DNA of 64,000 bases from Zingiber officinale. Taxonomy: Eukaryota; Streptophyta; Magnoliopsida; Zingiberales; Zingiberaceae. The translations under genes were made by a program, and so were the position numbers. How positions within the stretch are numbered: the stretch's first letter is position 1; each line of letters begins with the position of its first letter. The stretch is taken from positions 34,520,063 to 34,584,062 of the forward strand of contig NC_056002.1 in the NCBI RefSeq assembly GCF_018446385.1, in the 5' to 3' direction. Below are positions 150 through 34,996 of the stretch, piece by piece. Under the pieces are notes generated by a model, which was not told the DNA's origin, made no database searches, and worked only from the letters and a program-made list of their open reading frames with translations.

Positions 150-155
150 TATTTG

Positions 156-4635: not shown

Positions 4636-6100
4636 ATGGATCAACTTGGAGAAGACGTCACGATTCCACCCTTCTACGATCGCGATGACTTCGCATATTG
4701 GAAGGTAAGAATGAAGTATTTTCTTATGACTAACCTAGTAAATTGGAAATTGTGTACAAGTAGGTTTTATTCCTCCGGTGGATAAAGAAGGAGAACCTCT
4801 CGAGAAGAATAAGTGGACGAAGGAACAAATCCACCAATCCATAATCAACGACGAGGTAACGAAAACCTTTGAATTTTCATTACCTAATGATATCTTGTGT
4901 AAGATAGGTAGATACAACAATGCCAAGGAGTTGTGGAACAACTTGGCTAAGTTCCATGAGGAGAGCTCCAATTCAAGTCATGAAGAGGAGTCAAGTGTGC
5001 CAAGTAGCTCACATCATGGAGGTATGGAATTAGAAGTTGAGGGCTACTCAACATCTAAGGAAGAAGAGGAGGAGAGTTTTTCTTCAAGACTGGAGCAAGA
5101 AGAAGAAGCCTCTACCTCCGGAAGGGATGAAAGAGAGAGCTTATATCCATCCTCAACCCTAGGTAACACAAGCAACTTAATTTCTAGTAAATTACATATA
5201 ATGTGCTTTGAGTGTAGGGAATATGGGCATTACAAAAGTAAATGTCCAAAGAGGATTAGGAAGTCTCCACCGGCACCAAACGTCAAGGAAGTCGGAGTCC
5301 TGATACGCAAAGGCAAGGAGCACGTGGTGTGCTTCCAATGCAAGCAAAGGGGACATTATAGGAGTCAATGTCCAAGGGGGAGGCAACCTCACAAGGACAA
5401 GAGACCAAGCACATCTATAGGGGGAGCTAAGGCAAACCCTAAGGTATCCTTTAAGGCATATTCTTGCAATTCTAATAAGACACATGCTAGTAGTTTTATT
5501 GCAATTGTCAATAGTGATAAGCATGATAACCATAGAAACCGATACATGTGCTTAGGTGCCAAACATGTTAGCTTAGATAAGGACAATGCTAGAAATGTCA
5601 ACCCAAGAGTTAACTCATCTAAGGTTAAGGAAAACCTAGATAGGAATCCCAAATCAACTAGACATATGCCTAGGAATACCTCAAAGAAAAATGGAAAATT
5701 AAAGCTTGAGGTATTAAAGAAGGAAAATCAAGTCTTGAGGTCAAGGCTTGACACTTTAGAAAAGGCTCTTAAGAATTTGGAGAAGTCAACTCTAGGGTCT
5801 AAGGGTCAAAAATCAAAGCCCAAGGACATGAGAGGTTTGGGTCACAAACCTAAGTCTCATGTGGTCAAGCCCGCTTACCATAATGTTCCATTCGATTATG
5901 GAACAAGACCTAGGGCTAAGAAGACCATCACCAAGGTCACAAGGGGAGTCACCCCTAGAGTTGATCTTGATGAGTCCCAAATGACCAAGGCTTTAAAGTC
6001 TAGGAGGGTTGCTAGGGAAGTCATCACTAGTGAATATTTAGTGAACCCAATGAGCTCAAATAGGTATTGGGTTCCTAGGAGCGTGATCCCTTCACGCTAG
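4636..6100 (+). pseudogene. gag, array copy 2 (frameshifted)
   Basis: This starts with the same MDQLGEDVTIPPFYDRD as the intact copy 3. Relative to copy 3 it has three extra bases near 4686 (in frame) and one extra A in the run at about 4746-4749, which shifts the frame. Downstream from about 4778 the frame is open to 6100 and carries both CCHC knuckles (CFECREYGHYKSKC, CFQCKQRGHYRSQC), the acidic serine-rich linker and the coiled-coil-like region. The Gag N-terminal UBN2-like domain is therefore separated from the nucleic-acid-binding part. It is probably non-functional unless frameshifting occurs. Confidence 0.85.
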
Positions 6101-7834: not shown

Positions 7835-9576
7835 TGTTGGTGCAACCTTAGGTCAAGGTTGACCTGGGTGACCCGACTCGAGTTGACCTGACTCGAGGTA
7901 TATTTTGATGTTTGACAAGAATGGAGAAGTTATATTTTGATGTTTGACAAGAATAGGAACTTGGGGGATTGTGGGTGCAACCTTTAGACAAGATTGACCT
8001 CGTTGACCCGACTTGAGTTGACCTAATTCGGGAAAAGTCCAAGTATGGAGACTTGGCACTGAAAAGTCCAAGTATAGAGACTCGGCACGGAAAGGTCCAA
8101 GCAGGGAGCTTGGCACGGGAAAAGTCCAAGTATGGAGACTTGGCACGGAAAAGTCCAAGCAGGGAGTTTGGCACGGGAAAAGTCCAAGCAGGGAGCTGGG
8201 CACGGGGAAAAGTCCAAGTATGGAAGCTTGGCATGGTAGGTTAGAGAGGACTCGGTAGCTCGTTCTCTGGACTGGATGGAGTCGGAGAGGGCTCGGTAGC
8301 TCGTTCTCCGGACTAGGTCAGAGAGGGCTCGGTAGCTCGTTCTCTGGACCGGGCGTGGAAGTCGGAGAGGGCTCGGTAGCTCGTTCTCCAGACTAGGTCA
8401 AAGAGGGCTTGGTAGCTCGTTCTCTGGACCGGACGTGGAAGTCGGAGAGAGCTCGGTAGCCCGTTCTCCGGACTAGGTCAGAGAGGGCTCGGTAGCTCGT
8501 TCTCTGGACCGGACGTGGAAGTCGGAGAGGGCTCGGTAGCTCGTTCTCCGGACTAGGTCAGAGAGGGCTCGGTAGCTCGTTCTCTAGATCAGGAAGGCTT
8601 TAGGGTTTAAGGCTGGGAAATTGGATCGGTCTGCTGACCGATCCAGTGATACTATGGGTATCTGGATCGGTCTGTTGACCGATCCAGTGATACACTGATT
8701 CTCACAATGGGACATCTGATCGGTCTAGTGATCGATCAGAAACCAAACAGATTGGGAGAAGGAATAGGAGGGATCGGTCGGTGGACCGATCCACCTATGG
8801 CCTGATCGGTCCACAGACCGATCAGGGCTCGGCAACCAACTCACTGTGAAGAGTTGGGATCGGTCTGGGGACCGATCGGCCTAGGGCCTAATCGGTCCAC
8901 AGACCGATCAGGGATTTCCTGGACCGATCAGGCCATAGTCTGATCGGTCCAGGTCTAGCCGTTGAGTCACAACGGCTAGATTTCTGTGTCTTCTTTGTTC
9001 TTCTTCGCAGGTTCATATAAATCAAGAGTTGGAGGTGGAGGGCCTGAAGAGATTCTGCTGGTTAACTTCTTCTTCCTTCCTGCGATCTGAGCTTTGTTGA
9101 GCTCTCTACTGCTGAAGCTTCGTGTGAGCTTCCCTCGGCTGGGTCTCCAACTGAACAGTTGCTGCTGTGGTTGGCATCCGTGCAGTTGCTGCTTCATCAA
9201 CAGTCGACGAGAAGGCAAGCAAACTAGTATTTTTACATTCATATTGTTCTTAGCTTCTTGCTGTATTTCTTGTACTCTGATCTTGCTGTTGCAAGTGTGG
9301 CGAGGTTTCTCCACCCAGAAGGAGTTTTCATTAGTCGGTTTTCCGGGGTCTCATCCACCGACGGATTGATAGGATTCGTCCACCTTACGGACACGCCGAG
9401 GAGTAGGAGTATCATCTCCGAACCTCGTTATATCGTCGCGTTTGAGGTTTGATATTCTCCCATTTCGTTTCTATCTTTTATTTCCGCTGCGCTAACTCAA
9501 ATTATAGGAAGAAACGAGAATTTGGGGTCGGCTATTCACACCCCCCCCTCTCTAGCCGCATCCGAAGATCTTAACA
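7835..9576 (+). mobile_element. LTR 2 of element A
   Basis: The LTR runs from TGTTGGTGCAACC to GATCTTAACA, about 1742 bp, with the same order as LTR 1: CCAAG repeats, GCTCGGTAGCTCG repeats, palindrome array, TATA-like box. It is shared by copies 2 and 3. The primer site follows at 9579. Confidence 0.85.
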
Positions 9577-9638
9577 AGTGGTATCAGAGCAAGGTTACTC
9601 TTCGTCGGAATAACACCCGGGGGAGCACGAGCTAGAGA

Positions 9639-11099
9639 ATGGATCAACTTGGAGAAGACGTCACGATTCCACCCTTCTACGATCGCGACTTCGCGTATTG
9701 GAAGGTAAGAATGAAGTATTTTCTTATGACTAACCTAGTAAATTGGAATTGTGTACAAGTAGGTTTTATTCCTCCGGTGGATAAAGAAAGAGAACCTCTC
9801 GAGAAGAAGAAGTGGACGAAGGAACAAATCCACCAATCCATAATCAACGACGAGGTAACGAAAACCTTTGAATTTTCATTACCTAATGATATCTTGTATA
9901 AGATAGGTAGATACAACAATGCCAAGGAGTTGTGGAACAACTTGGCTAAGTTCCATGAGGAGAGCTCCAATTCAAGTCATGAAGAGGAGTCAAGTGTGCC
10001 AAGTAGCTCACATCATGGAGGTATGGAATTAGAAGTTGAGGGCTACTCAACATCTAAGGAAGAAGAGGAGGAGAGTTCTTCTTCAAGACTGGAGCAAGAA
10101 GAAGAAGCCTCTACCTCCGGAAGGGATGAAGGAGAGAGCTTATATCCATCCTCAACCCTAGGTAACTCAAGCAACTTAATTTCAAGTAAATTACATATAA
10201 TGTGCTTTGAGTGTATGGAATATGGGCATTACAAAAGTAAATGTCCAAAGAGGATTAGGAAGACTCCACCGGCACCAAAAGTCAAGGAAGCCGGAGTCCT
10301 GATACGCAAAGGCAAGGAGCACGTGGTGTGCTTCCAATGCAAGCAAAGGGGACATTATAGGAGTCTATGTCCAAGGGGGAGGCAACCTCACAAGGACAAG
10401 AGACCAAGCACATCTATAGGGGGAGCTAAGGCAAACCCTAAGGTATCCTTTAAGGCACATTCTTGCAATTCTAATAAGACACATGCTAGTAGTTTTATTG
10501 TAATTGTCAATAGTGATAAGCATGATAACCATAGAAACCGATACATGTGCTTAGGTGCCAAACATGTTAGCCTAGATAAGGACAATGCTAGAAATGCCAA
10601 CCCTAGAGTTAACTCATCTAAGGTTAAGGAAAACCTAGATAGGAATCCCAAAACAACTAGACATATGCCTAGGAATACCTCAAAGAAAAATGGAAAATTA
10701 AAGCTTGAGGTATTAAAGAAGGAAAATCAAGTCTTGAGGTCAAGGCTTGACACTTTAGAAAAGGCTCTTAAGAATTTAGAGAAGTCAACTCTAGGGTCTA
10801 AGGGTCAAAAATCAAAGCCCAAGGACATGAGAGGTTTGGGTCACAAACCTAAGTCTCAAGTGGTCAAGCCCGCTTACCATAATGTTCCATTCGATTATGG
10901 AACAAGACCTAGGTCTAAGAAGACCATCACCAAGGTCACAAGGGGAGTCACCCCTAGAGTTGATCATGATGAGTCCCAAATGACCAAGGCTTTAAAGCCT
11001 AGGAGGGTTGCTAGGGAAGTCATCCCTAGTGAATATTTAGTGAACCCAATGAGCTCAAATAGGTATTGGGTTCCTAGGAGCATGATCCCTTCACGCTAG
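9639..11099 (+). CDS. gag: Gag polyprotein of element A, intact copy
   Basis: An intact 486-residue frame starts 49 bases after the primer site. It is a Copia-type Gag expected to form cytoplasmic virus-like particles and bind element RNA. The N-terminus FYDRDFAYWKVRMKYFL resembles the UBN2/DUF4219 gag domain. An acidic serine-rich linker follows (about residues 110-175). Two CCHC zinc knuckles lie at about 189-202 (CFECMEYGHYKSKC) and 231-244 (CFQCKQRGHYRSLC). A basic stretch and a coiled-coil-like segment rich in K, E and L lie near 350-383. The C-terminus is WVPRSMIPSR. No protease or other pol domain follows, so it would depend on an autonomous partner. It is the only undamaged gag among the three array copies. 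Confidence 0.85.
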   Translation: MDQLGEDVTIPPFYDRDFAYWKVRMKYFLMTNLVNWNCVQVGFIPPVDKEREPLEKKKWTKEQIHQSIINDEVTKTFEFSLPNDILYKIGRYNNAKELWNNLAKFHEESSNSSHEEESSVPSSSHHGGMELEVEGYSTSKEEEEESSSSRLEQEEEASTSGRDEGESLYPSSTLGNSSNLISSKLHIMCFECMEYGHYKSKCPKRIRKTPPAPKVKEAGVLIRKGKEHVVCFQCKQRGHYRSLCPRGRQPHKDKRPSTSIGGAKANPKVSFKAHSCNSNKTHASSFIVIVNSDKHDNHRNRYMCLGAKHVSLDKDNARNANPRVNSSKVKENLDRNPKTTRHMPRNTSKKNGKLKLEVLKKENQVLRSRLDTLEKALKNLEKSTLGSKGQKSKPKDMRGLGHKPKSQVVKPAYHNVPFDYGTRPRSKKTITKVTRGVTPRVDHDESQMTKALKPRRVAREVIPSEYLVNPMSSNRYWVPRSMIPSR

Positions 11100-12820
11100 A
11101 TGGTTTAGGGTGTGCCAACCTTAATTGGATAGGTAGTTAACCTACTCATGGCAAAAGGTGGCATTTTAGGAATTTTCAAGGTGTGTTCAAGCCTTGAAAA
11201 TGAAATTAAAAATTATTCCTAAGGTGATTAGGATGTGCCAACCACATTTGAGGAGTTTTCTAGGGTCAATCTAATTGGCACATAATGATCTAAAAATCTT
11301 TAGTATATGATTTTAGGTCTATTACACTTAGGAATATTGAATTTATGGTAAAATGATCAAAATTATCAAAAATGGCAACTAAGGCTAGAATTAGGTATTT
11401 TCTATACCTTTATATGTTATTTGTCATACATTGTTTGTCATATGCCATGTCATGACATCATCTTTATTTTATTATCATTTGAAATGTCATGATAATACTT
11501 AGGTTAGTTATATGTCATGCCTTATTTAAGTTTCATACTTGATGACATGACATCATGACATTGGCACATGTTTCCACTTATGATATTATTTTATGCCATG
11601 TCATCATCTCTTGCATTTATGATCAATTAATTTGATTTAAGGATAGAAACACAATTTGATATGGAGATCAAATTGTTGTTTAGAAAATGCATGAGAACTT
11701 AGCTTAAGATGACCTAAACCCATATCTCATATAAAAATGACTTGGATGTGTTTGATACACCTTAGATGTGTGTGAGATATTATGATGATGAGTTAGGATC
11801 AAGGTGCATAGTTATTGTACCTAGATGAGCCTAATTCGAAATTGAGGATCATAGGGAAAACTTGTGTACAAGTCATGTACATTTAGCCCTAAGATTGTGG
11901 TCCTAAATTGAATGGTTTAAGATCATTTCAAAATTGATTTGAAAAACCTTGATGAAGCTTTTCTAGTGATAGCATTCATCATTGAGCAAGTTGATACAAA
12001 GATGAATTAACCTTGAGCTATTTCAAAGTCTTTCGAACTTTGTATCAAGATTAAAAAATGGGAGTTATTTTCGTAGAAAACTATTTTTCCATGATAATAT
12101 ATGTTATGAGGAATGTATCCTCAAAAATTTTACAATTTTTAGAATTTTCTGTAATTTTTTAGGGGTTTCTGAATTTCGGAAGAAAAATCAGAAATTCTTA
12201 TCAGAGAATTGTGGACCGATCAGAGAAGATTATGACCGGTCCAGGGAAGTCTGGATCGGTCACTGGACCGATCCAGGGCAGTATGGATCGGTCTGGTGAC
12301 CGATCAGAGCGTGCCAAAATGCTGATTTTCGACTGTTGTCTGAAATTTCAGCTATGGAAGTTGGTGTTTTAGATTTCTAATGGGTTGAAACTCTCCAAGA
12401 CATTGTTGGTGTTATGGTCAAGGAGGAGTTGACCTTTAGGGGGAGTTTTACCTATTGGTCAAAGGGGAGTTGACTTTTAGGGGGAGTTTTTACTCGTCAA
12501 GATTTCTGAGGATGAGTGATATGGGATTATCACTGAGTTGATTGTTGATTTTAGTATCAAGGGGGAAATTAAGGGTTTCAATGAAAGGTATGAGACTTTC
12601 ATTAGGAAGAAACTCTTGACCTTGATTCACTCCTTTTTGATGTGTGTCAAAAAGGGGGAGAATGTCCAGAGAATGTTTAAGGAAGAACATTGGAGTTTGG
12701 GGAGAATGTACAGAGAATGTTCAAGGAAGAACATTGGAGAACTATTAGAAAACCTAAGTTAGGTTATCGGGTTAACCTAACTTGATTATGGTTTTTGTCA
12801 AACATCAAAAAGGGGGAGAT
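11100..12820 (+). other. Non-coding tail of array copy 3
   Basis: Homologous to 1013-2796, with no gene. One palindrome unit is missing near 12300 compared with copy 1. It ends with the purine tract at 12807-12820. Confidence 0.75.
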
Positions 12821-14535
12821 TGTTGGTGCAACCTTAGGTCAAGGTTGACCTGGGTGACCCGACTCGAGTTGACCTGACTCGAGGTATATTTTGATGTTTG
12901 ACAAGAATGGAGAAGTTATATTTTGATGTTTGACAAGAATAGGAACTTGAGGGATTGTGGGTGCAACCTTTGGTCAAGATTGACCTGGTTGACCCGACTT
13001 GAGTTGACCTGATTCGGGAAAAGTCCAAGTATGGAGACTTGGCACGGAAAAGTCCAAGTATTGAGACTTGGCACGGAAAGGTCCAAGCAGGGAGCTTGGC
13101 ACGGGAAAAGTCCAAGTATGGAGACTTGGCACGGAAAAGTCCAAGCAGGGAGCTTGGCACGGGAAAAGTCCAAGCAGGGAGCTGGGCACGAGGAAAAGTC
13201 CAAGTATGGAAGCTTGGCATGGTAGGTCAGAGAGGGCTCGGTAGCTCGTTCTCTAGACTGGATGGAGTCGGAGAGGGCTCGGTAGCTCGTTCTCCGGACT
13301 AGGTCAGAGAGGGCTCGGTAGCTCGTTCTCTGGACCGGACGTGGAAGTCGGAGAGGGCTCGGTAGCTCGTTCTCCGGACTAGGTCAGAGAGGGCTCGGTA
13401 GCTCTTTCTCTGGACCGGACGTGGAAGTCGGAGAGAGGTCGGTAGCCCGTTCTCCGGACTAGGTCAGAGAGGGCTCGGTAGCTCGTTCTCTGGACCGGAC
13501 GTGGAAGTCGGAAAGGGCTCGGTAGCTCGTTCTCCGGACTAGGTCAGAGAGGGCTCGGTAGCTCGTTCTCTAGATCAGGAAGGCTTTAGGGTTTAAGGCT
13601 GGGAAATTGGATCGGTCTGCTGACCGATCCATTGATACTATGGGTATCTGGATCGGTCTATTGACCGATCCAGTGATACACTGATTCTCACTGTGGGACA
13701 TCTGATCGGTCTGGTGACCGATCAGTAACCAAACAGATTGGGAGAAGGAATAGGAGGGATCAGTCGGTGGACCGATCCACCTATGGCCTGATCGGTCCAC
13801 AGACCGATCAGGGCTCGGCAACCAACTCACTGTGAAGAGTTGGGATCGGTCTGGGGACCGATCAGGGATTTCCTGGACCGATCAGGCCATAGTCTGATCG
13901 GTCCAGGCCTAGCCGTTGAGTCACAACGGCTAGATTTCTGTGTCTTCTTTGTTCTTCTTCGCAGGTTTATATAAATCAAGAGTTGGAGGTGGAGGGCCTG
14001 AAGAGATTCTGCTGGTTAACTTCATCTTCCTTCCTGCGATCTGAGCTTTGTTGAGCTCTCTACTGCTGAAGCTTCGTGTGAGCTTCCCTCGGCTGGGTCT
14101 CCAACTGAACAGTTGCTGCTGTGGTTGGCATCCGTGAAGTTGCTGCTTCATCAACAGTCGACGAGAAGGCAAGCAAACTAGTGTTTTTACATTCATATTG
14201 TTTTTGGCTTCTTGCTGTATTTCTTGTACTCTGATCTTGCTGTTGCAAGAGAAATTGTGGCGAGGTTTCTCCACCCAGAAGGAGTTTTCATTAGCCGATT
14301 TTTCGGGGTCTCATCCACCGACGGATTGATAGGATTCGTCCACCTTACGGACATGCCGATGAGTAGGAGTATCATCTCCGAACCTCGTTATATCGTCGCG
14401 TTTGAGGTTTGATATTCTCCCATTTCGTTTCTATCTTTTATTTCCGCTGCGCTAACTCAAATTATAGGAAGAAACGAGAATTTGGGGTCGGCTATTCACA
14501 CCCCCCCTCTCTAGCCGCATCCGAAGATCCTAACA
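12821..14535 (+). mobile_element. LTR 3 of element A (right end of array)
   Basis: The LTR runs from TGTTGGTGCAACC to GATCCTAACA, about 1715 bp. It is followed not by a primer site but by TATACCTGGTC, which is LTR sequence of element B. This is the true outer end of the array. The five bases after it (TATAC) would be the target duplication, but the left partner is lost with the truncated left end. Confidence 0.85.
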
Positions 14536-18170: not shown

Positions 18171-21170
18171 TGGATGTTGGATAGTGGATGCTCCAGATAT
18201 ATGACTGGAGATAGACTAAAGTTCACAAAGCTCAAACTAAAGAATTTATGATCTGTTGCATTCGGCAACGATGGTAAACTTAAGGTAATCGGAAAAGATA
18301 ACATCAAACTCAGTTCCGATTTTATTATTTGAAAGGTATTATTAGTTGAAAATTTTAACTTTAACCTACTCAGTATAAGTCAGTTATGTGATAGTGGTTA
18401 TTCAATAAACTTTACCAAATCTAGGTGTATAGTTGAAAATATTGATAACCCTGAAATCACACTTAAGGGCGTTAGGAGAAACAATGTCTACACAATTAAT
18501 CTACCAACATACTCAATAAAGTGTCTCCTGACACAACAAAAGGAAACTGAGTTGTGGCACAGGAGACTAGGTCACACTCACACTAGACTCATTTCAAAAA
18601 TGAGTCAAAATGGTCTAGTCAGAGGACTGTCCAAATTAAAATTTATTGCAAGTTCAATCTGTGATGCCTGTTAACAGGGTAAACAAACCAAATCAAACCA
18701 TAAATTTACCAATCTAAACAAAACTGCTTCAATACTTGAGCTCTTTCACCTAGACTTGTTTGATTCACACAGAGCCAAGTCACTAAGCAAAAACCAATAT
18801 TGCTTAGTAATAATCGATGACTACTCAAGATTTACTTGGGTAAAATTTATAAAAACTAAAGATAAAACTTTTGAAGTATTTAAAACTCTTTGTAACATAA
18901 TAGAAAATGAAAAAGATACACAGATAAAAAGAATAAGAAGTGACCATGGGGGAGAATTTGAAAATCATAAGTTTATTGAATTTTGTGAAATTAATGGATA
19001 TCAACATGAATATTCTTGCCCTAGAACCCCCCAACAAAATGGTCTAGTAGAACGTAAAAACAGAACCCTACAAGAAGCCACTAGAACCATGTTAAATGAA
19101 TACAATTTATCAAATCAATTTTGGGCTAAAGCAATTAACACAGCCTGTTATATACAAAATAGGATTTTAATTAACAAATTTCAGAATAAAACACCCTATG
19201 AAATATACTACAATAAAATTCCTAACTTAAACTATTTAAAAGTATTCGGGTGTAAAGTCTTCATCTTAAACACTAAAGACTACTTAGGGAAATTTTCATC
19301 AAAAACAACCCCAGGAATATTTTTTGGGTACTCAACAACTAGTAGGGCATATAGAGTTTATAACAAAAATACCCTAAAAGTTAAAGAAACAATAAGTATA
19401 ATATTTGATGAAGAAAATAAACTACCCGATATAAGAAATGAAAATAATAATACAAAAAATGTTAACACAAGAAATACAGAAGATGATGACAGAATTCAAC
19501 TTGAACCTAATGAATCTAAAGAACCAATTCCTAACCCAAATGTAAGACCAACAAGAACAATCACCAATCACTCATCTGACCAAATTTTGGGTGATCCAAC
19601 TCTAGGAGTCAAAACTAGGTCATCTTACAGGAACCTAAGCCAAATAGCCCTGATTTCTAAAATTGAATCAAAAACTATAGATGAAGCCCTACCAGACCCA
19701 GGCTGGACCTTAGCAATGCAAGAAGAATTGGCCCAATTTGAAAGAAACCAAGTCTGGGAACTAATATCTAAACCCATTAACAAAACAATAATTGATACAA
19801 AATAGGTTTTTAGGAACAAATTAAATGATCAGGGTGAAATAGTTAGAAATAAAGTAAGACTAGTAGATAAAGGGTTTAATCAAGTAGAAGGATTAGACTA
19901 TGATGAGACCTACACTCCTGTAGCTAGACTTGAATCCATTAGGATGCTGCTGGCTTATGCAGTACATAAAGGATTCAAGCTCTATCAAATGGATGTAAAA
20001 TCTGCATTCTTAAACGGGTTTATTAAAGAAGAAGTGTATGTTAGCCAACCCCCAGGATTTGAAAACCTAGAATATCCAGACCATGTCCTTAGATTAAAAA
20101 AAGGCTCTATATGAACTAAAACAAGCACCTAGAGCTTGGTATGAACGATTGTCTAATTATTTATTAGAAAAAGGATTTCACCAGGGTCAAGTAGATCCAA
20201 CCCTTTTTGTGAAAACCTTAGACAAAGATATTTTTATTGCCCAAATTTATGTAGATGATATAATATTTGGGTTGACAAATTCAAAATTCTTAAAAGAATT
20301 TACAAACCTAATGGAAAATGAATTTGAAATGAGTTTAGTAGAAGAACTTAATTTTTTCTTAGGTCTACAAATTAAGCAAACAAAAGACAGAATTTACATC
20401 TTCCAAACCAAATATACTAAGGAGTTAATTAAAAAATTTGGAATGGAAAATTCAAAAAATATTAATACACCAATGGCCACCAATATTATAATTGACTCAG
20501 ACTTAGAAGGAAAATTAGTAGACTTGAAATACTACCGCGGTGTGATAGGGAGTCTACTGTACCTAACTACAAGCCGACCAGATATTCTTTTCGCAGTAGG
20601 TATGTGTGCAAGATATCAATCTTGTACAAAAGAGTCACACTTAACTTATGTTAAAAGAATACTTAGATATATTAAGGGAACCCTAAATGTAGGACTATGG
20701 TACCCTAGGACTTGCACTCTTGATCTGACTAGCTATTCTGACTCAGACTATGTCGGGTGCAAGCTAGATAGAAAAAGCACAAGTGGTAGTTGTCAATTTC
20801 TAGGTCAGTGCCTAGTAAGTTGGTCAAGCAGAAAGCAACATTATGTTGCCTTATCAACCACTGAAGCTGAGTACACAGCCCTAAGAGAATATGCATCTCA
20901 ACTATTATGGATGATGCATACCCTAAAAGACAACCAATTTCAATTGACAACATAAGTTCAATTAATCTAACCAAAAACCCAATTCACCACTCAAGAACTA
21001 AACATATAGAAGTAAAACACCATTTTGTAAGGGATCACGTAGCTAGGGGTGATATTGTATTTAACTATGTTGAGTCCAAATCAAACCTAGCTGATATATT
21101 TACAAAACTCTTACCTGAACTTGAGTTCGGTGCACTTAGAAGACAAATAGGAATGTGCTTAGTAGAATAG
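18171..21170 (+). pseudogene. pol: pol of Copia element B (multiple stops and frameshifts)
   Basis: Order is protease, integrase, RT, RNase H, as in Copia. Protease: WMLDSGCSRYMTG at 18171. GAG-pre-integrase: ELWHRRLGHTHTRL near 18551, then CDAC followed by TAA instead of a sense codon. Integrase core: IDDYSRFTW, SDHGGEFE and PQQNGLVERKNR in the open stretch 18756-19805. RT: DVKSAFLNG near 19993 and YVDD at 20248-20259. RNase H: STTEAEYTAL and the end AINLTKNP-like SINLTKNPIHHSRTKH. Damage: TGA near 18250 and near 18330, TAA near 18674, TAG at 19803-19805, a one-base A insertion in the run near 20094-20101, and a frame change near 20930. Confidence 0.88.
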
Positions 21171-24402: not shown

Positions 24403-26315
24403 TAATAAAGGTGTATCTTATTCATTAGTTGTTGAAACATGTTTAGCGGTGTTATCTATCGATACCTGGTGTGTAGATACAGGAGTCACTGATCATGTCT
24501 GTAATTCATTGCAGGGGTTCCAGGAAATCAGACAACTATATGAAGGGGAAATCACCATCTACATGGGCAATTCCATAAAAGTGGCTGTTGTTATAGTGGG
24601 AGATGTTTATTTATCCTTTGATAGGAATAAAATATTGATTTTTGAGAAATTATCTTTATGTACCAAGTTTTAGAAAGAACTTGATTTCAGTTTCTAAATT
24701 ATTTAAGGATGGATATTCTGTTTCTTTTTATGACAAAGTAGTTGTCAAGAAAAATAGGATGGTTATCTGTTCTGGTACGTTAGTTGACAATTTGTACACT
24801 CTTAATCCAATAACTTTCACGATGCAACAAATGGAAATTAATAACACGTCTTCTAATTCTAATAAGAGAAAGCAGCCTTCGAAAATGAACCAAACATATC
24901 TTTGGCATCTACGGCTTGGTCATATTAACTTAAGTAGGATTCAAAGGCTAATAGCCGATGGACCTTTGGGTTCATTGGTAGTGGAAGACTTTCCAACCTG
25001 CGAATCTTGCTTGGAAGGAAAAATGACCAAGAGACCTTTTAAGACCAAGGGGTATAGAGTCAAAGATGTATTGGAATTGGTTCATTCTGATTTGTGTGGA
25101 CCTATGACTATCCAGGCAAGAAGTGGTTTCGAATATTTTGTCTCTTTTATAGACGACTATTCGAGATATGAGTATATTTACTTGATGCGCCACAAGTCTG
25201 AGTACTTTGATAAGTTCAAAGAGTACAAAGCTGATGTGGAGAAACGTCATGGTAAAAGTATCAAGACACAATGGTCTGATCATGGTGGCGAGTACCTCTT
25301 AGGAGAGCTTAGGAATTACTTATCAGAGGCCGAGATTCAATCTCAACTGTCTACACCTGGTACACCCCAACAGAATGGTATAGTAAAACGAAGGAATAGG
25401 ACTCTTATGGAAATGGTTAGATCAATGATGAGTTATTCAGAATTACCAAATTCGTTTTGGGGATATGCTCTGGAAACGGCAGTGTACATTCTGAACTTGG
25501 TATCTTCTAAGTCAGTACCCTCTACTCCCACAGAATTGTGGATTAGGCGTAAACCTAGTATGAAGCATATTCGGATTTGGGGTAGTCCAGCACATGTGCT
25601 GAAGGGAGACACTGATAAGTTAGAATCATGTACAGAAGTTCGCTTGTTTGTGGGTTATCCTAATGGAACGAAAGGTGGTTTATTTTATAGTCCTAAAGAT
25701 CAGAAGGTCATTGTTAGCACCAATGCCCGATTTTTAGAAGAAGACTATGTAATGAACCACAAGCCCATGAGTAAAATTGTTCTTGAAGAAATAAGAGAAG
25801 ACACGTCTACTTTAGTACCAACGGTACAAGATGAGATACCATAAGAAACTGCAACATGTGTCACAAATGATGTACAATTACAAGCAGTGTCACGTCGTAG
25901 TGGGAGGGTTGTTCGGCAACCTGATAGATTCATGTTTTTGGGAGAGTCTTCGGACTTGATCCCTGGTGAACATGAACCTGATCCCTGGACATAAGATGAA
26001 GCACTCCAAGATAAAGATGCAGCATCAGTCTATCTATGGACTGAAGCAAGCTTCGAGATCTTAGAATATCCAGTTTAATCTTATGGATTTATTCAGTGTC
26101 CGGATGAGTCTTGTGTATACAAGAAGAATGATGAAAACATGGTGGTATTTCTTGTACTATACGTAGATGACATTTTGTTCATTGGCAACAATGTCAAAGT
26201 GTTGTCAGACGTAAGGGTATGGTTGTCCAAGCAGTTTGATATGAAGGTTTTGGGAGAATGTGGGCATATTATTGGGATCAAAGTAATAAGGGATCGCAAG
26301 AAAAGAATGTTGTGC
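24403..26315 (+). pseudogene. pol: pol of Copia element C, part 1 (protease to RT fragment)
   Basis: The 5' end is cut by LTR X. Protease-like WCVDTGVTDHVCNSLQGF lies near 24468. The frame then shifts near 24640, and the integrase part is open 24642-25844: an HHCC zinc region (LWHLRLGH...CESCLEGK) and core motifs [16 protein letters not shown] and [13 protein letters not shown] stop follows at 25842-25844. Near 26028 the text jumps to YGLKQASR, so most of the RT fingers are deleted. YVDD is kept at 26160-26171. The frame is interrupted at 26316 by the CACTA-1 insertion. It resumes at 34997. The copy is dead. Confidence 0.85.
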
Positions 26316-26720
26316 CACTACAACAAAAACTATAAACGACAACGGATATTATCCATTGTCGTAGGGTCAAAAAACCGTTGTAACTGAGGGCGTTGTAAAA
26401 TGTATTGCCCTACGACAACGGTTTTGAATCCGTTGTCTTTGTAGACATTCAACAACGATTTTTATCCGTTGTTGTTTATATACTCAAAATTTGTTTACGA
26501 AGGATACGAAAACGTTTTAAAACCGTTGTGATAGATAATTTTGACAACAGATATAAATCGTTGTGGTAGACTCTTTTTACAACAGATATAAACCGTTATG
26601 GTATATAATTTTAATATGTTTTACAACGGATAAAACCATTGTCTTTTATCACTTTTCACAAAAAAAAAAATCCATTGTGGTTACGTACTTTTTACAATGT
26701 TTCTGATCGTTGTCTTTAAT
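26316..26720. repeat. Left subterminal repeats of CACTA-1
   Basis: At least ten short motifs in both orientations, such as AAAACCGTTGT, CAACGGTTTT and GACAACGGAT. Similar motifs (AACGATTTTC, AATCGTTGTCGTA) lie at 34690-34993 on the right. In CACTA elements such repeats bind the transposase. Confidence 0.8.
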
Positions 26721-26904
26721 GTTCATGTTGTAACATGAAATAACAAACAATCAATCTTTATTTAATATAAAGAAACCACTAATACAAAACTAAATATTTA
26801 CTACATTCAATCCATGAAAATGTTATCTTCAAATTTCAAAAATTAATTACACACATCAAAATGAGAAAATAATAGTTGTGTAATCGAAATCCAAAATATG
26901 TCAG

Positions 26905-27005
26905 CTAAAATCCTCTTCCCAACTGAATCTTTAAAGCCTTTTCCAGCAACTTACTAGCTGCATCTTCACGTGACTGAGTATACAAATTTCCCTTGGCAAT
27001 CAAAT
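26905..27005 (-). pseudogene. Unidentified host-gene terminal exon in CACTA-1
   Basis: On the minus strand an acceptor-like TTCTGCAG precedes an open stretch reading DLIAKGNLYTQSREDAASKL, then LEKALKIQLGRGF and a TAG stop. The composition looks like a real amphipathic coding exon, not repeat. I do not recognise the family. It lies downstream of the FEI-like exons in the same orientation and could supply the stop of a chimeric transcript. Confidence 0.4.
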
Positions 27006-27594
27006 CTGCAGAATTAAGATGTAGGAGCTGATAAAAATAAATAAATTATAAAGACATTAAAAGATAAAATATACATGTAAGCAAATAAGAATTATCTTAA
27101 CCTGCTGAAACACATACAGATTGATGATACAATTAAGATTTTCACTACTGTTGTCTTATTTGTGTAGCATGTTATTGGAAATTAGCAGCTGGTATAGAAG
27201 GAAAAGAAATTGCATAACATCCACAGCTATTTGGCAATTTGCAACGATCTCAATCATATAAATCATATGGTTCTTCATTGAGTTCAATTTAGCCCAATAG
27301 CATATTCAAATCAAAGCATGATACTTTAAGGTTGGCAATGCCATAAAACTTATCCAACAAACACTGAAAGGTCAAATGCAAAGTGCTAACATAACACATT
27401 CTAACACTGAGCAGAACTAATAAGATATTTTCACCCAGAACGCTAGTTATGATCTATATGTCAAATAAAAAGATAGAAGAGAACGCTTGTGTAATGGGGA
27501 AAAAAACTTTAGTTGCCCAAGTAGAAAACAATTGGATAACATGTAACAATTAATGGAGCAAGCCAATGAAGCATCAAAGAGAATAGAAGAGTTA
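27006..27594. other. Intron-like or unassigned CACTA-1 interior
   Basis: AT-rich and without a frame I can assign. It lies between the FEI-like exons and the terminal exon-like piece. Confidence 0.4.
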
Positions 27595-28542
27595 CTCATG
27601 AAGTGCTTTGGAAAGTTACAAGGATTCCAACAGTTGGAACCTCACCAGATAAGAAATTTGTTGATAAATTCCTACAGTTGTTAAAAAAATCATAGTCAAA
27701 CAGTTAACTCTGCAACAACAAACTGCCTAGCCACCAATAATCACATGAACACTCACAGAAATCGTAATTGGTTCAGAGAGCCAATAGATGGAGGAATTGT
27801 GCCCCTAAGCAAATTGCTTGACAAGTCCCTACATTTTTTTACATCAAGCTCAAGAAAACTGATTAAAGAAACAACTATATAACAAAAGAAAATAAGGGGA
27901 TGTAATAATTACAGGATGGTAAGGTGCACAAGTTCTCCAATCTCGGGTGGAATGTTCCCTTGAAGGTAATTAGCTCTCAGATACCTTGAAAAATAAGTAA
28001 TGTAACAACTTCATGCAACAATATATAGTAAATTCTCATTGCCAATAACTATAATCGATAAAAAAAATATATGAATAGAAGAAAACGCATACAATGCTAT
28101 TAGCTCAGTGCAGTTCTTTATGGAATAGGACCGTGCAAGCAGTTTTGGTGCAAAGCCCTGCCACAATGATAATTTCATCCTTGAAAGAATTCCATCACTA
28201 TAGCTACTTAAGATTAGAAATTTCATCTTCAGTACTATCTCAAATCTAGATCAAACACTAGCAAGAGAAATGCAATTAAGAAAGAGTATATTAAATAGAA
28301 CAATTTAAAAATTAATATGGTGATCTACCAAATGGTGGTTCACAGTCTCCTTGTTTGGGATTTCATATTTCATATTACATCGTTTCATTTTTTTTTTTTT
28401 GTCAGAATCACCATGCATTCGAAGGTGTTCTAGTAAGAAAAAAAAAGAACTAAAAGAAAAATGTGCTTATAATCTTTGAAGCCTCCGAATCCGGCCAATG
28501 CTCAGGGAGATGATGCCACTGAGCTGCATATAAGGAAAGTCA
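27595..28542 (-). pseudogene. Captured LRR exons of a FEI-type receptor kinase
   Basis: Five exon-like pieces occur in gene order on the minus strand. Exon 28471-28542 reads DFPYMQLSGIISLSIGRI. Exon 28093-28157 reads ALHQNCLHGPIP then, after a frame break, NCTELIAL. Exon 27913-27984 reads YLRANYLQGNIPPEIGEL. Exon 27757-27828 reads DLSSNLLRGTIPPSIG. The last, about 27595-27672, reads NLSTNFLSGEVPTVGIL. Three are exactly 72 nt with AG acceptors and GT donors, the LRR exon size in this kinase family. The second is 65 nt, a 7-nt loss. Signal peptide, membrane segment and kinase are absent. FEI kinases act in cell-wall signalling; this piece can only encode part of an LRR ectodomain. Confidence 0.85.
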
Positions 28543-28690
28543 CTGCAATGGAAATAGGAATTGGTAAGGCAAGCTTCCAAAACCTAAAATACTAATACAG
28601 ATAAAAGAAAATACATCCATCAATAATACATCCATGTTAAAAAATACATCCATGAACAGGAATAAAAAAATTGGAACAAGAATAATATAA
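28543..28690. other. Unassigned CACTA-1 interior left of element D
   Basis: No gene seen. The last five bases (TATAA, 28686-28690) are the left target duplication of element D. Confidence 0.6.
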
Positions 28691-29618
28691 TGTTGGTCGC
28701 CGTGGGTGTTTTGATGTGATCAACCAAGTTGGTTAGGTCCTGCTTTATGTTTGATCCCTGTGTCTGAGTGTGCAGGAGCTTAGGAGTGCAGGAAGTTGAG
28801 CGGAAGACGCAGCTAGCGAGAAGGATGGCATGGGAAGGGAGCCGACGGGCTCGGTGCGTCCGAAGGACGAGAGAGCTGCGGAAGAGTACTCCGGTGGACG
28901 AGAAGAACGTGCACGGCGTTCGAGGGACAAGAAGCCGGACGGAAGACTGCTCGAGGAGAAGGTCATAAATTGGGTTCGGGTGAGCCCTATTTCGGTTGCC
29001 CGCAATCACCTAACCAAGTGAAGCTTCGGAAGTCAAAGCAAAGGAGAAGATGTGCTAGAAATACAGCTCAAGGTGCCTCAAGCAGTATTTGAGGCCCCTC
29101 AAACCTTTGAGGTGCCTCAATCAAGCTTGGAGGTGCCTCAAACATTTGAGGTGCCTCCAAGTTTGTTTAAGGCGCCTCAAGCCTAGTCAAAAGAGTCGTT
29201 CGAGCACGGATAGAGTTCTATCCGGTCAAAAGTCAATGGAGGTGCCTTCAAGGTTTATAGAGGCGCCTTCAACCCTCGGGATAGACTTTCCAGGAGCTAT
29301 ATAAAGGCCCCTGGAGCTAGGAAAGAAACAACAACTCAAGCAATCAATTCTGTAGTCTTTCTTAGCAACTTGTGAGCGTTTTAAGTGTGTAAAAGGCTTC
29401 TCCACCTTCAGCAAAGGCGATCTTCTACTGCGCCTTTCTTACTACCCTGCATTAACAACCCTCTTGGTTGTAACCAGGTTAAATTTCTGTCTCCTTTTAT
29501 TTCTGCTCTTAATTTTATTATAGTTGCTTATCTTTGAGTTGAAAGATCCGAGGAGGGTATCGTTTTAATGTTTTAGAAGCAATTCACCCCCCTCATGCCG
29601 GCCTCCGCTGCACCTACA
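28691..29618 (+). mobile_element. 5' LTR of element D
   Basis: TGTTGGTCGCCG to CACCTACA. A TATA box TATATAAAG at 29298-29306 follows several GAGGCGCCT / GAGGTGCCTC half-palindromes (29075-29270). C-to-T changes have eroded many of these sites compared with the 3' LTR, consistent with methylated-cytosine decay. Confidence 0.85.
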
Positions 29619-29620
29619 AT

Positions 29621-29632
29621 TGGTATCAGAGC
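29621..29632 (+). promoter_or_regulatory. Primer-binding site of element D
   Basis: TGGTATCAGAGC, two bases after the LTR; initiator tRNA-Met type. Confidence 0.9.
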
Positions 29633-29683
29633 CAGACCGCCTCAGAAGGACTAACCGCCGACTGAAGCACAACGATCAAGACG

Positions 29684-31138
29684 ATGGCCGGAGCAAATAT
29701 TCATCCTCCAAAGTTCGACGGAGATTTCGCTACATGGAAGCGAAAAATAGAGGTATTTTTTAAAACTGAATTTGATATACTTTTAATAATGAAATATGGA
29801 TATGCAGCGCCGAAAGATAAAGAAGAAAACAGGTGGAGCAAGAAGGAGCAAACCGATTTTGTCGCCAACGGAAAGGCTGAGTTCCACCTGCTCAGCGTTC
29901 TGCCACCTTAGGAGGTAAATCGGATCGGAAGCTACGACTCCGCGAAAGATCTCTGGGAAAAATTCCTGGAGCTTCACGAAGGTACCTCCGAAGCGAAGCT
30001 AGCGAGGCGCGACATCCTCCGGACCCAATTGACGAACCTCCGGATGAACCAAGGCGAGAAGGTAGCACAACTCCAAGCAAGGATCAAAGAGCTGATCACG
30101 CAACTAACCAATCTTGGAGAAGAAGTAACGAACCGAGACTCGATCCGATATGCGCTCAACGCCTTCCTGAGAACTCAAGAATGGGCATCCTTAGTAGATG
30201 CATACTACATCTCTAAGGACTTCGAGGTAAGTACTCTAGAAAATCTATTTTCAACTTTTGAACTTCATGAATCTCGAATTGCAGAGCCCATTGGAGTAGA
30301 AAAGACGAGTCAGAACATTGCTTTGAAAGCAAGAGCAAACGGTTCTGACTCCGAAGCCTCGATCGACGAAAACGAGGCTACATTAATGGTAAGACGATTT
30401 AATAAGTTTTTTAAATCTAACAAATTTAGATCGCAGAAGCATGAGCAAAAAAGGAGAACGATTCGTTGCTACAACTGCAACGAAGAAGGGCACATCAAAG
30501 ATGATTGCCTGAAATTAAAGAGCAAGCAGAAAGAAAAGGTCAAGTACAAGAAGCCAGAATCCTCCAAGCACAAGAACCTGAAGGCAACCTGGTCAGATTC
30601 GTCTTCTTTTGAATCAGACGTCGAAGCCTTTTCAGGGTTAGCTCTACTAGCTAACCATCAGATGGAAGAAGAGTCAAGCTCAAAGATGAGCATCGATGAA
30701 GGGGGAGGAACATCAGAAGAGGAAAGCTGCAATGAAGGGGGAGCCTCACCGAGTCAGGTAAGTCAGGTATGCAATCTAACCCCGACTCAGTCTTTTCGCT
30801 TTATTAAGTTTCTTTCTAAAGACTTATTCAAATTAGAAAAAGAAAATGCTAAATTAAAATTGAACCTAGCAAAAGCATGCCCGTTAGAAATGTATGATCA
30901 TCTAAAATCAGAAAATGACAAATTAAAATTAGAAATTGAAAAATTGAAATCCGATACATGTTTAAAAACAAATAAATTTCCAAACTCAAAATTAAAAATT
31001 AATGGAAAATTGAATTGGTACATTAGAAACCATCAGGGTCAACTTAAAAGAGTACCCAAGAACTATGTACCCCCTAAATTTTTTAATAACCCTGTAGGAA
31101 GGAACCTCTATTGGGTTCCGAAATCTGTGCTAAATTAA
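29684..31138 (+). pseudogene. gag: gag of element D (one internal stop)
   Basis: Starts MAGANIHPPKFDGDFATWKR 51 bases after the primer site. The frame runs to 31138 with one TAG at 29909-29911. It has the Copia gag N-terminal domain, the UBN2 signature SAKDLWEKFLELHEGTSEAK, a CCHC knuckle CYNCNEEGHIKDDC, a serine/glutamate-rich linker and a K/E/L-rich coiled-coil-like region (KLKLEIEKLKSDTC). It ends YWVPKSVLN, like the B and A Gags. After the stop the frame is open for 369 codons from 30029. No protease or RT follows. Confidence 0.85.
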
Positions 31139-31734
31139 TCTATTTAATTAAGGCTTTCAGAAGAAAAATTAAATGTTAAAATTTCTTTATGAAGCTTTGT
31201 CTAAGGAAGTGGTTGTTACTCCAATAACCAAGAAGGTCTAGTGCCTCGCCATGACCTGGAAGCTGAAATATTGAAATAAAATATTTAATTAAACTTTCTG
31301 AAAAAACATTAAACTAGAATTAAATAATGCTTTGAAAGTTTTTTCAAACATTTTTAAAATTAAATATTAATTTTTGACTTAGACATTATTTTTGAAAAAT
31401 TCTAAAAATTATGTTTACTTAGAAATTTTTTTTGGAAAATTCGTTTTACACAAATTTTTTCTAACTTAAAAATTTGCTAAAAAAATTTTTCTGTTACCCC
31501 GCTTTTTGCTGTGATCAAAGGGGGAGAGAGAGGTACAAGTTTAGAGAGGAGAGAATTTTTTAAATTAAAATTATTTTTTTTCTCTGGTTAACTCTTAATT
31601 TAGTAGTTGCAATTTTATTTATTGCAAACTAATGCTTAACATGCTAGTTTAGTAATTTTCTTTAAAATTACTATTTTGTGTCTATTTTTACCCTAACTTG
31701 AACTTGGGTTGATGCACATCAAAAAGGGGGAGAT
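31139..31734 (+). other. Non-coding tail of element D with purine tract
   Basis: AT-rich, with no gene. GGGGGAGAGAGAG near 31521 and the tract AAAAAGGGGGAGAT at 31721-31734 next to the LTR. Confidence 0.75.
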
Positions 31735-32664
31735 TGTTGGTCCCCGTGGGTGTTTTGATGTGATCAACCAAGTTGGTTAGGTCCTGCTTTGTGTTTGATC
31801 CCTGTGTCTGAGTGTGCAGGAGCTTAGGAGCGCAGGAAGTCGAGCGAAAGACGCAGCTAGCGAGAAGGACGGCACGGGAAGGGAGTCAATGGGCTCGGTG
31901 CGTCCGAAGGACGAGAGAGCTGCGGAAGAGTACTCCGGTGGACGAGAAGAACATGCACGGCGTTCGAGGGACGAGAAGCCGGACGGAAGACTGCTCGAGG
32001 AGAAGGCCGAAAATTGGGTTCGGGTGAGCCCTATTTCGGTTGGCCTCAATCACCCAACCAAGTGAAGCTTCGGAAGTCAAAGCAAAGGAGAAGATGTGCT
32101 GGAAATACAGCTCAAGGCGCCTCAAGCAGTATTTGAGGCGCCTCAAACCTTTGAGGCTCCTCAATCAAGCTTGGAGGCGCCTCAAACATTTGAGGCACCT
32201 CCAAGTTTGTTTAAGGCACCTCAAGCCTAGTCAAAAGAGTCGTTCGAGCACGGATAGAGTTATATCAGGTCAAAAGTCATGGAGGCGCCTTCAAGGCTTA
32301 TAGAGGCACCTTCAACCCTCGGGATAGACTTTTCAGAAGCTATATAAAGGCCCCTGGAGCTAGGAAAGTAAAAAAAATAACTCAAGCAATCAATTCTGTA
32401 GTCTTTCTTAGCAACTTGTGAGCGTTTTAAGTGTGTAAAAGGCTTCTCCGCCTTCAGAAAAAGAGATCTTCTACTATGCCTTTCTTACTGCCCTGCATTA
32501 ACAACCCTCTTGGTTGTAACCAGGTTAAATTTCTGTCTCCTTTTATTTCTACTCTTAATTTTATTATAGTTGCTTATCTTTGAGTTGAAAGATCCGAGGA
32601 GGGTATCGTTTTAATTTTTCAGAAGCAATTCACCCCCTTCTTGCCGGCCTCCGCTGTACCTACA
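31735..32664 (+). mobile_element. 3' LTR of element D
   Basis: TGTTGGTCCCCG to TACCTACA, 930 bp. AGGCGCCT palindromes are better kept than in the 5' LTR (32115-32300). A TATATAAAG box lies near 32341. Confidence 0.85.
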
Positions 32665-32669
32665 TATAA

Positions 32670-33317
32670 TTCAAGTATGGTTGTTAATCACAATTTGTCT
32701 CACGAATTTCTGATGCTCCAGCCCAAAATGGTCCAAACAAATATGGATACAAAGTAGGAACTAAATTGAGTAGAGATCTCATGATCACTATGATCCAACC
32801 CTATGCTCATTCACCAATCCTACTTAAGATCTAAGTCTTGAAAGCCTCCACTTAATCAAATATATAATTACAGTATTGCTAACTTCATAGTAGATCATTT
32901 CGTACCATGTCACCTAAGAAATTTTTTTATATATGATAACCAATTTTAACTTCAGAGTATAAGAAACGTTACTAACTTTTATGATCATCATCCATCTTAG
33001 AGGAGTACCATATAAAAATGCAACCCCTACTAGTTATAATGCATTGTTCATATATCTCCTACATGAATAATATTAGTCATCCTTAGCCATAAATTTTGGC
33101 TAACAAAACTAGATATCGAAAGATAATCCATATGATAAAATCACAAATACCAAATATAATTTTTGAATAAATATTTTGTTAAGCATTGGGATCTTAAGAT
33201 CCTATGACTCCACAATATTTCTAGATAGGATCTTAATCCAAAACAAACAAATATGTCAAGAGATACAACTTACAGTGTTATATTAGATATAAATTTTTTG
33301 CAATGATACTAGATTAC
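32670..33317. other. Unassigned CACTA-1 interior right of element D
   Basis: Mostly AT-rich and intron-like. On the minus strand near 32684-32780 there is a short open stretch (NLVPTLYPYLFGPFWAGAS) ending in TAA that could be another captured exon; I do not recognise it. Confidence 0.4.
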
Positions 33318-33530
33318 CTGTCAAGTGTGCCACTTATGACGAATGCCTGACCAGCTAAATAGTAAGGAGCACCTTCTGGAACTTCCTACTCAACCAGAGA
33401 AACAAGACTAAAGCATGGAAACTAGATAGATTTATTAAAGTGAATAATATCATTATTTACCAATTACCTTCTCTCCTTTGTGTGGAGGATCATTCCTCTC
33501 TCCAAAATTCATAATCCTTTTGTTCATTGC
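33318..33530 (-). pseudogene. RFC1-like: Captured exons of replication factor C subunit 1 (BRCT start)
   Basis: Two adjacent minus-strand pieces with splice signals. The upstream piece, ending at 33468, reads MNFGERNDPPHKGEK and is followed by a GTAATT donor. The next exon, 33318-33385, begins after TAG and reads EVPEGAPYYLAGQAFVISG, followed by GTAATC. In plants this order is the segment just before and into the BRCT domain of the clamp-loader large subunit RFC1. The rest of BRCT, the ATPase core and the C-terminus are missing. The fragment has no function of its own but shows gene capture. The assignment rests on remembered family signatures. Confidence 0.75.
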
Positions 33531-33701
33531 AAATATCGTGAATAGCATACCAGATATTATGGTGTGGAATCATGATCCTTTTGCTCATTGCAAGATACCC
33601 TTTTATTAATCCTAGGGGAATTCATCAATTGTTGATTACTACCTAAAAATAATTAATTTGTCTTTAAATTAATCCTCATAAAATATGATGGCAAAAAGTA
33701 C

Positions 33702-34261
33702 CTGTCATCGAGAGAACCATTACACTGAATTGGAGTAGATGGTGGATGTCTTCCAGGAAAAGGAATAAGTAATATTTTGTGAGCAAACAATTGAAGATAT
33801 GTTGTTAGACCATTAGTTCTCTTGATATCTGTAATCTTTCATAAACAAAAGAGAACACTCTCAGTGCTAACCAATCTGCACTTGTCACTAGATGCTTTAA
33901 AGATCTAAAAGTGAAAAACTATGGAAAATTGACAAATATTAATCAAAGGACTACATAATGGAGAGAAAGAATAGCAACATCTAATAGTTATCACACATTT
34001 ACTGATTTAGGATTCAAGAGAAATAAGTAAAACCAAGATTTTTTTTAGCAATATTCATCAAAAGAAACTTTTTTCCCCTCATTTCTGAAACAAGATCAAC
34101 ATTTAGTAAAGAAAAATCCGAATTACCTCAACACCGTACTTTATGGCGATGCCTGCAAGTGTGTCCAACTTGGATACATGATGCTCGATGTACTTCAACG
34201 CACAAGGAGACGAGGGAGGAGCAAAGGTATCATATTTTCTCTCATGGGAAAAAGATTCCAT
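33702..34261 (-). pseudogene. Captured 5' exons of a LysM-domain protein gene, with start codon
   Basis: Exon 1 (34127-34261) opens with ATG and encodes 45 residues: MESFSHERKY, then the LysM core IEHHVSKLDTLAGIAIKYG, ending at a GTAATT donor. Exon 2 (33702-33828) follows a TTACAG acceptor and contains LFAHKILLIPFPGRHPPS, ending at GTAC. LysM folds bind chitin-like or peptidoglycan-like sugars; plant proteins with this exact VSKLDTLAGIAIKYGVE type are small soluble LysM proteins. The phase between the two exons seems off by a few bases, so correct splicing is unsure. This is the 5'-most fragment of the cargo and may bring its own 5' flank. Confidence 0.8.
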
Positions 34262-34690
34262 CGCTATAGGGTGAATGCGACAAAAAAAAATGAGGGAGAA
34301 AACCTAGAATGACATCAGTTTCTTCGATCGGCGACGCAAGTAGGTGGAAGAAGGTGGGCAAATCAAAATAAAAGAAGGAATTCGCAACACAAACAAACCA
34401 AGAAATAGAAAGTAACCTAGATCAGTAGATCTGGAACTCTAGATCACGTCCTGGCCTCCGTCGCGCACGCTCCCATGATCCGGACCCTCGCTATCGCCCT
34501 GCGATCGCTCTTCCCGGCTGTTGCTACTCCTACGTGGCTCCAGTGAGAGAGAGATTGTGAGAAAAGAGGGACGAAAATGCTTAGGGATAGAGAAGGTAAG
34601 GGGGGAATGCGGCGGCAAAAAAATTTCGGGGAGATGGAAAGAAAAAAAGCGGCGGTAAAAAATGGCGAAGGGGAAAAACCGGCGAAGGAA
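34262..34690 (-). promoter_or_regulatory. Possible captured 5' flank of the LysM gene
   Basis: Upstream (minus sense) of the LysM start codon, with GC-rich stretches near 34440-34540 and CT-rich tracts typical of plant 5' UTRs. No clear TATA box was found. The role as a promoter for the chimeric unit is inference. Confidence 0.3.
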
Positions 34691-34993
34691 AAAAACATCG
34701 GTATTCAACATCACTTAATAGACAACGATTTTCAAAAATCGTTGTCGTAATTTCAAAAAAGCACACAAAGACAACATTTTCAAAAACTGTTGTCGTAGCC
34801 TTTAAAAATCGTTGTCGTAGCCCTAAAAAAACATAAATGGACAACAATTTTTAAAAACCATTGTCGTAGGCCAAAAAAAACTGCTAAAAGACAACGATTT
34901 TTGTTAAAACCGTTGTTAAAAGGTAAAACAACAATGATTTGGCATAAAACCATTGTCGTTTCAGTGTTGTTGAATGAGGATTTTGTTGTAGTG
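34691..34993. repeat. Right subterminal repeats and terminal inverted repeat of CACTA-1
   Basis: Repeated ACAACGATTTT and AACCGTTGT/AATCGTTGTCGTAG motifs, mirroring the left end, close with TTTTGTTGTAGTG. Confidence 0.8.
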
Positions 34994-34996
34994 TGC

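Follow-up and report, generated by a model that had tools for sequence, protein, structure and literature searches.

In soybean, the CACTA element Tgm-Express1 carries both exonic and intronic segments from five unrelated host genes, and these can be joined by splicing to the transcripts of the gene in which it resides, giving chimeric RNAs (Zabala and Vodkin, 2007, PMC1947982). In the Pack-CACTA elements of Arabidopsis and other Pack-TYPE transposons, terminal inverted repeats (TIRs) surround host coding DNA, and families that have only some parts in common are explained by the fusion of neighbouring insertions (Gisby and Catoni, 2022, PMC8903248). According to the Pack-CACTA model, two neighbouring elements fuse and then move as one (PMC8903248; PMC13317346). 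Rice Pack-MULEs have likewise captured fragments of many host genes, and some of them are expressed as chimeric transcripts (PMC13317346). The way in which Pack-type transposons acquire new gene pieces is still at the stage of models. In this work, a stretch of 64,000 nucleotides of ginger (Zingiber officinale, assembly GCF_018446385.1, contig NC_056002.1, positions 34,520,063 to 34,584,062 of the forward strand), hereafter the window, was analysed, and it contains a non-autonomous CACTA element with fragments of four host genes. We consider it to be a ginger Pack-CACTA (Pack-TYPE) element which arose step by step out of fragments of these genes and was then multiplied, and we give this reading a probability of about 85%.

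The ginger element and Tgm-Express1 are both CACTA elements carrying pieces of several host genes. Tgm-Express1, however, lies in an intron of F3H and its chimeric cDNAs were cloned, whereas the ginger element carries pieces of other genes, lies in a copia retrotransposon interrupted by stops and is known from its DNA alone. Unlike the soybean element, it has several sister combinations visible as predicted proteins. With the Pack-TYPE elements it shares the TIR ends, the internal host coding DNA and the existence of predicted members that have some parts in common and differ in others, but the families treated in detail in PMC8903248 are Pack-PIF and Pack-Mariner with one or two gene pieces, in contrast to four genes and 11 exons in ginger. 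The rice Pack-MULEs are similar in their capture of multiple host-gene fragments, although they belong to another transposon superfamily, while the ginger element ends in CACTA and has a 3-bp duplication. Among the open-licence matches listed, no title or abstract start reports a ginger Pack-CACTA, the word CACTA is absent from the main text of one ginger genome paper (PMC8342499), and the words Zingiber, ginger and Musa are absent from that of PMC8903248. An earlier note on this DNA had suggested that the assembly may be undescribed. This can stand for the ginger element itself but not for its kind, which is well described, and the element is a fresh example of the known Pack-CACTA process.

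The borders of the element are well defined (Table 1). Its inverted repeats begin with CACTA and are identical at 13 of 13 bp, the 3-bp target-site duplication (TGC/TGC) fits the CACTA (En/Spm) superfamily, and repeated short subterminal motifs are present as expected of that superfamily. The whole window was scanned for perfect 13-bp inverted pairs with a spacing of 300-15,000 bp and equal 3-bp flanks; six pairs were found, three of which use more than two letters, and the pair that bounds the element is the sole one starting with CACTA. The two terminal blocks, whose limits were picked by eye, hold 16 CAACG/CGTTG motifs, compared with a maximum of four when the placement was randomised 5000 times elsewhere. 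The element measures 4699 bp once the nested retrotransposon and one copy of its duplication are subtracted. A second copy of the element was not found within the window by blastn at E 1e-3. The element is inserted into a copia polyprotein gene. Integrase domains were identified in the open reading frame (ORF) upstream of it, and the two flanks fused at a single TGC copy give an open frame of 188 amino acids. The left flank alone (79 amino acids) matches the Pfam family RVT_2 (E 5e-12), and the right flank alone (109 amino acids) has no Pfam match. The left and right flanks align to residues 26-98 and 103-202, respectively, of another copia polyprotein in the window (20098-20955), with 29% and 36% identity, and are thus adjacent parts of one protein.

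Eleven exons from four source genes lie between the CACTA ends, all on the minus strand: two from a LysM gene, two from RFC1, five from FEI1 and two from LOC122037411. This arrangement places the element among the Pack-CACTA (Pack-TYPE) transposons. Gene identities were searched against 5.8 billion proteins, and exon limits were placed by homology. The LysM exons contain a LysM domain (E 5.8e-07), and their nearest intact gene is LOC122027784 (P0003, E 4.3e-43, about 85% identity per exon). The sequence upstream of their start codon may possibly be the captured 5' untranslated region or promoter of the LysM gene. The RFC1 piece is 89% and 87% identical to the ginger RFC1 genes P0190 (E 1.3e-12) and P0192, respectively, and 87% is also reached by many other plants. 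The top row of the two-exon search was RFC1 of Penstemon (P0188, E 7.2e-51, 60% identity), which ranked above the ginger chimeras and ginger RFC1. Since ginger is only slightly ahead, the RFC1 piece alone is no proof of ginger origin. RFC1 exon ii alone (23 amino acids) had no Pfam or PDB match and was identified with the two-exon query. For the FEI exons, the best match was ginger FEI1 (P0068, E 9.2e-65, 93%), compared with 88% for Curcuma, among the best 120 of 434 matches. A PDB search with these exons returned many leucine-rich repeat receptors and did not single out FEI. The top matches for the LysM, FEI and terminal exons are all from Z. officinale, with RFC1 being less decisive. The earlier note had described a chimeric Pack-CACTA with intact 13-bp ends, a perfect TGC duplication and LysM, RFC1 and FEI fragments on the minus strand, and had proposed a search of each exon peptide against proteins of these families; the ends, the duplication and the significant matches to P0003, P0190 and P0068 bear it out. 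The possible terminal exon with a stop is also real, and it derives from a fourth gene that the note had not named, LOC122037411 (P0059). Homology to this source ends at GRGF and the stop codon follows directly, whereas the source protein continues as GRGFYGECL. A Pfam search with P0059 gave nothing at E 10, which leaves the gene behind the terminal exon without a functional name. Introns are retained between the exons, which indicates that the fragments were copied from DNA and not from spliced RNA.

The evidence for a stepwise assembly comes from ten other predicted Z. officinale proteins on eight contigs, distinguished by their lengths, in which protein searches detected the same modules in overlapping combinations. 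P0001 consists of a P450 followed by LysM-RFC1, and P0002 of LysM-RFC1-FEIb followed by chorismate synthase. P0189 begins with a copia reverse transcriptase and continues with a longer RFC1 piece and FEI a-c. RFC1ii is joined to FEIa in P0063 and P0067, and P0063 also has FEId and a portion of the terminal exon. P0060, P0061, P0064, P0065 and P0066 have ankyrin repeats and the terminal exon, with FEId in P0064 and P0065. At the protein level, the RFC1-FEI joining is found in five sequences (window, P0002, P0063, P0067 and P0189) and the LysM-RFC1 joining in three (window, P0001 and P0002). In RFC1ii, the derived residues YY (for DC or EC) and A (for T) are shared by all five of the sequences from the window, P0001, P0002, P0063 and P0067; at these sites, all four RFC1 genes compared (two of ginger and one each of Curcuma and Canna) have DC or EC and T. 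P0189 has GC and T there, without YY and A, yet its exon i, like that of the window, has N in place of K. P0189 and P0002 read FEI exon b out of frame, as is the case in the window. Furthermore, all five ankyrin models end in GRGF exactly as in the window, where the source gene reads on, so copies whose 5' genes differ end at a single shared 3' stop junction. P0063 and P0067 also hold weak helicase (ResIII) matches, and P0067 a weak match to the C-terminal part of a ubiquitin protease; these two models may hold further captured genes.

The overlapping combinations of the same modules, the shared derived residues and the one shared 3' stop junction suggest that the assembly was probably built once, stepwise, and then spread and recombined. 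We hypothesize that a CACTA transposase supplied from elsewhere mobilised the element. The simplest history includes one RFC1-FEI joining, which would be the first step. The LysM 5' end would then have replaced the upstream RFC1 part in one sub-lineage, and in other members a fragment of an ankyrin gene would have been joined to the FEI/LOC122037411 end. Such exchange could proceed by fusion of neighbouring elements that are re-mobilised as a single unit, as proposed for Pack-CACTA, and this model fits because the families share one half and differ in the other. The copy in the window would subsequently have gained the long terminal repeat (LTR) retrotransposon and decayed.

Several observations weigh against this history. 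No intact transposase ORF is present in the element; the only wholly internal open segment of at least 130 amino acids is the gag of the nested retrotransposon, the shorter segments not having been scanned for remnants. No convincing relic of an internal end was detected; the internal site most similar to the 13-mer has two mismatches (26777-26789, plus strand, just inside the left block). Five copies with two mismatches occur in the whole window, in which matches with up to three mismatches number 41, compared with 28.6 expected, a count reached in none of 100 shuffles. Apart from its terminal blocks and the LTR insertion, the element holds just two CAACG/CGTTG motifs. Moreover, the sister loci are known as predicted proteins alone, so that CACTA borders around them are presumed, some of the ten models may represent two alleles of one locus in a two-haplotype assembly, and P0060, P0061 and P0066 share only the terminal exon module.

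A different view is that the family is a mobile chimeric gene, working now or formerly, in which a LysM-RFC1-FEI fusion protein is made from the promoter and start codon of LysM and selection has kept orientation and phases. The chain from LysM1 and LysM2 through RFC1i and RFC1ii to FEIa is indeed open, and its phases fit, provided that an acceptor is granted at the LysM/RFC1 junction, and LysM is joined in frame to RFC1 in two ginger models. FEI exons c-e, moreover, differ from the source protein at 0 of 72 residues compared with 6 of 45 in a and b (Fisher p 0.0026, post hoc), which speaks for this view as well, although later recapture, gene conversion and chance are all candidates for the contrast. 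On the other hand, the state of this copy speaks against a working gene. GT donors are present in eight of ten exons, FEI a and FEI e having AT instead, and AG acceptors in eight of nine, so the retention of splice sites and 72-nt exons claimed in the earlier note holds only in part, four of the five FEI exons having 72 nt. The missing acceptor is that of the LysM/RFC1 junction, at the start used by analogy with P0001 and P0002, and FEI b, at 65 nt, has lost the frame and falls 7 nt short of its 72-nt neighbours. The two sister models read S-KRIMNFGER at this junction, as would be expected if they had an AG acceptor at that point. A direct repeat of 24 bp lies at the same junction (33509-33593), its copies being 92% alike and 61 bp apart; the outer copy has AG and the inner one does not. 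When all listed exons are joined regardless of sites, the LysM-RFC1-FEIa frame reaches 167 amino acids and stops in FEI b. The longest product among the 256 in-order subsets of the eight exons downstream of LysM1-LysM2 has 235 amino acids, and the terminal stop is reached in frame by one of the 256 (RFC1i plus the terminal exon), which requires the missing acceptor; the short first LOC122037411 exon was omitted from this test for want of a defined start. In this copy, no spliced frame with usable splice sites stays open across the fused exons: the acceptor and two donors are defective, and FEI b is out of frame. It thus does not encode a full chimeric protein and most likely makes none. A spliced chimeric transcript, which the earlier note held to be conceivable, is so within the family, where the phases from LysM2 to FEIa fit and P0001 and P0002 are predicted to join LysM to RFC1, but this copy has the defects just named. 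Transcription from the LysM side would give aberrantly spliced RNA, perhaps a source of small RNAs against the parent genes. The uniform orientation, previously taken to suggest capture under selection or by transcription-linked steps, is rejected as such a sign: it has a chance probability of 0.125 for four fragments and 0.25 for three, and gene models can only show exons of the same strand. In addition, FEI d is read in a different frame in the ankyrin models P0064 and P0065, and all ten chimeric models have ZIOFF_ names (059335, 001398, 013669, 071405, 073287, 070907, 008143, 011919, 072683 and 036297) and show no LOC name in the two protein searches that revealed them, in contrast to the intact sources P0003 and P0059. 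We therefore regard a working chimeric gene as very unlikely.

The fragments could also have been gathered by a Helitron or another capturing element that was then swallowed by the CACTA element. Multiple fragments on the same strand are typical of Helitrons too, and the element has them. Inside the element, CTRR-T preceded by a perfect hairpin was looked for, imperfect hairpins and Helitron 5' ends not being covered, and one weak site was obtained (33076, minus strand, 7-bp stem) that lies between the modules and cannot bound them all. With no such 3' end around the fragments, at least as far as perfect hairpins are concerned, a Helitron origin was rejected and appears highly improbable. That an ordinary host gene fusion has coincidental CACTA ends, a reading in favour of which nothing was found, has a probability close to nil, since every fragment lies between the 13-bp inverted ends with their target duplication; it is refuted by the two flanks being adjacent parts of one copia polyprotein. 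A more far-reaching version of the stepwise Pack-CACTA history would be a mobile exon-assembly cassette of ginger, in which a fixed 3' block (FEI exons and the terminal exon, whose stop codon originated where the capture joined it to other DNA) would acquire, again and again, new 5' gene starts with promoters (RFC1, LysM, ankyrin), always in sense, so that new spliced chimeric genes would arise at many loci, with some expressed and kept. We consider this extension unlikely.

Table 1. Positions of the CACTA element, its captured exons and associated features in the window.
Feature	Position	Strand	Remarks
Non-autonomous CACTA element	26316..34993	.	8678 bp; based on ends, TGC duplication and adjacent copia flanks
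Target-site duplication TGC, left	26313..26315	.	
Target-site duplication TGC, right	34994..34996	.	
Terminal inverted repeat	26316..26328	+	13 bp, CACTACAACAAAA
Inverted copy of 13-bp end	34981..34993		Inverted copy of CACTACAACAAAA
Left subterminal block	26316..26760	.	445 bp; 11 CAACG/CGTTG motifs
Right subterminal block	34690..34993	.	304 bp; 5 CAACG/CGTTG motifs; includes inverted 13-bp end
Sequence upstream of LysM start codon	34262..34689	-	GC 0.546 in outer 249 bp
LysM exon 1	34127..34261	-	Carries start codon
LysM exon 2	33702..33835	-	
RFC1 exon i	33468..33522	-	RFC1 homology starts at MNFGER; LysM-side sequence joined upstream
RFC1 exon ii	33318..33385	-	BRCT domain start
FEI exon a	28471..28542	-	72 nt; donor AT, not GT
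FEI exon b	28093..28157	-	65 nt; frameshifted
FEI exon c	27913..27984	-	72 nt
FEI exon d	27757..27828	-	72 nt
FEI exon e	27600..27671	-	72 nt; donor AT, not GT
End of penultimate LOC122037411 exon	27099..27137	-	Matched stretch LNCI..FQQ; tblastn match to P0059 230-242; GT donor after CAGCAG, which ends at 27102
Terminal exon from LOC122037411 (P0059)	26905..27027	-	40/43 residues identical over 27036-26908
Nested LTR retrotransposon	28691..32664	+	LTRs 28691-29618 (928 bp) and 31735-32664 (930 bp)
TATAA duplication of nested retrotransposon	28686..28690	.	Second copy 32665-32669
Host copia retrotransposon, upstream part	24639..26315	+	Integrase, then reverse transcriptase; frame broken by stops; resumes at 34997

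The nested LTR retrotransposon is itself probably non-autonomous, because its only long ORF is a gag with a zinc knuckle. Its LTR pair has 49 mismatches at 924 compared sites (925 and 927 bp of LTR), corresponding to a Kimura two-parameter distance of 0.055 and, assuming 1.3e-8 substitutions per site per year, to an age of about 2.1 million years. Since it lies between the RFC1 and FEI modules, these captures probably predate its insertion. Its LTRs bear repeats of a GAGGCGCCTC-type palindromic motif. Elsewhere in the window, three head-to-tail units of about 5.0 kb (1-14200), which have 97-99% similarity in most of the 300-nt stretches compared and less in a few, contain copia-type gag-like ORFs with zinc-knuckle motifs seen by eye and were read as a tandem array of LTR retrotransposons. 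A 57-bp minisatellite with 12.7 copies and 89% matches occupies 59857-60610.

Taken together, the RFC1-FEI, LysM-RFC1 and shared 3' junctions make the order of capture readable, and the fusion model proposed for Pack-CACTA can be tested on DNA. The sister models are also a warning that ginger gene sets contain chimeras, probably made by transposons, under annotations such as LysM, chorismate synthase or uncharacterised protein.

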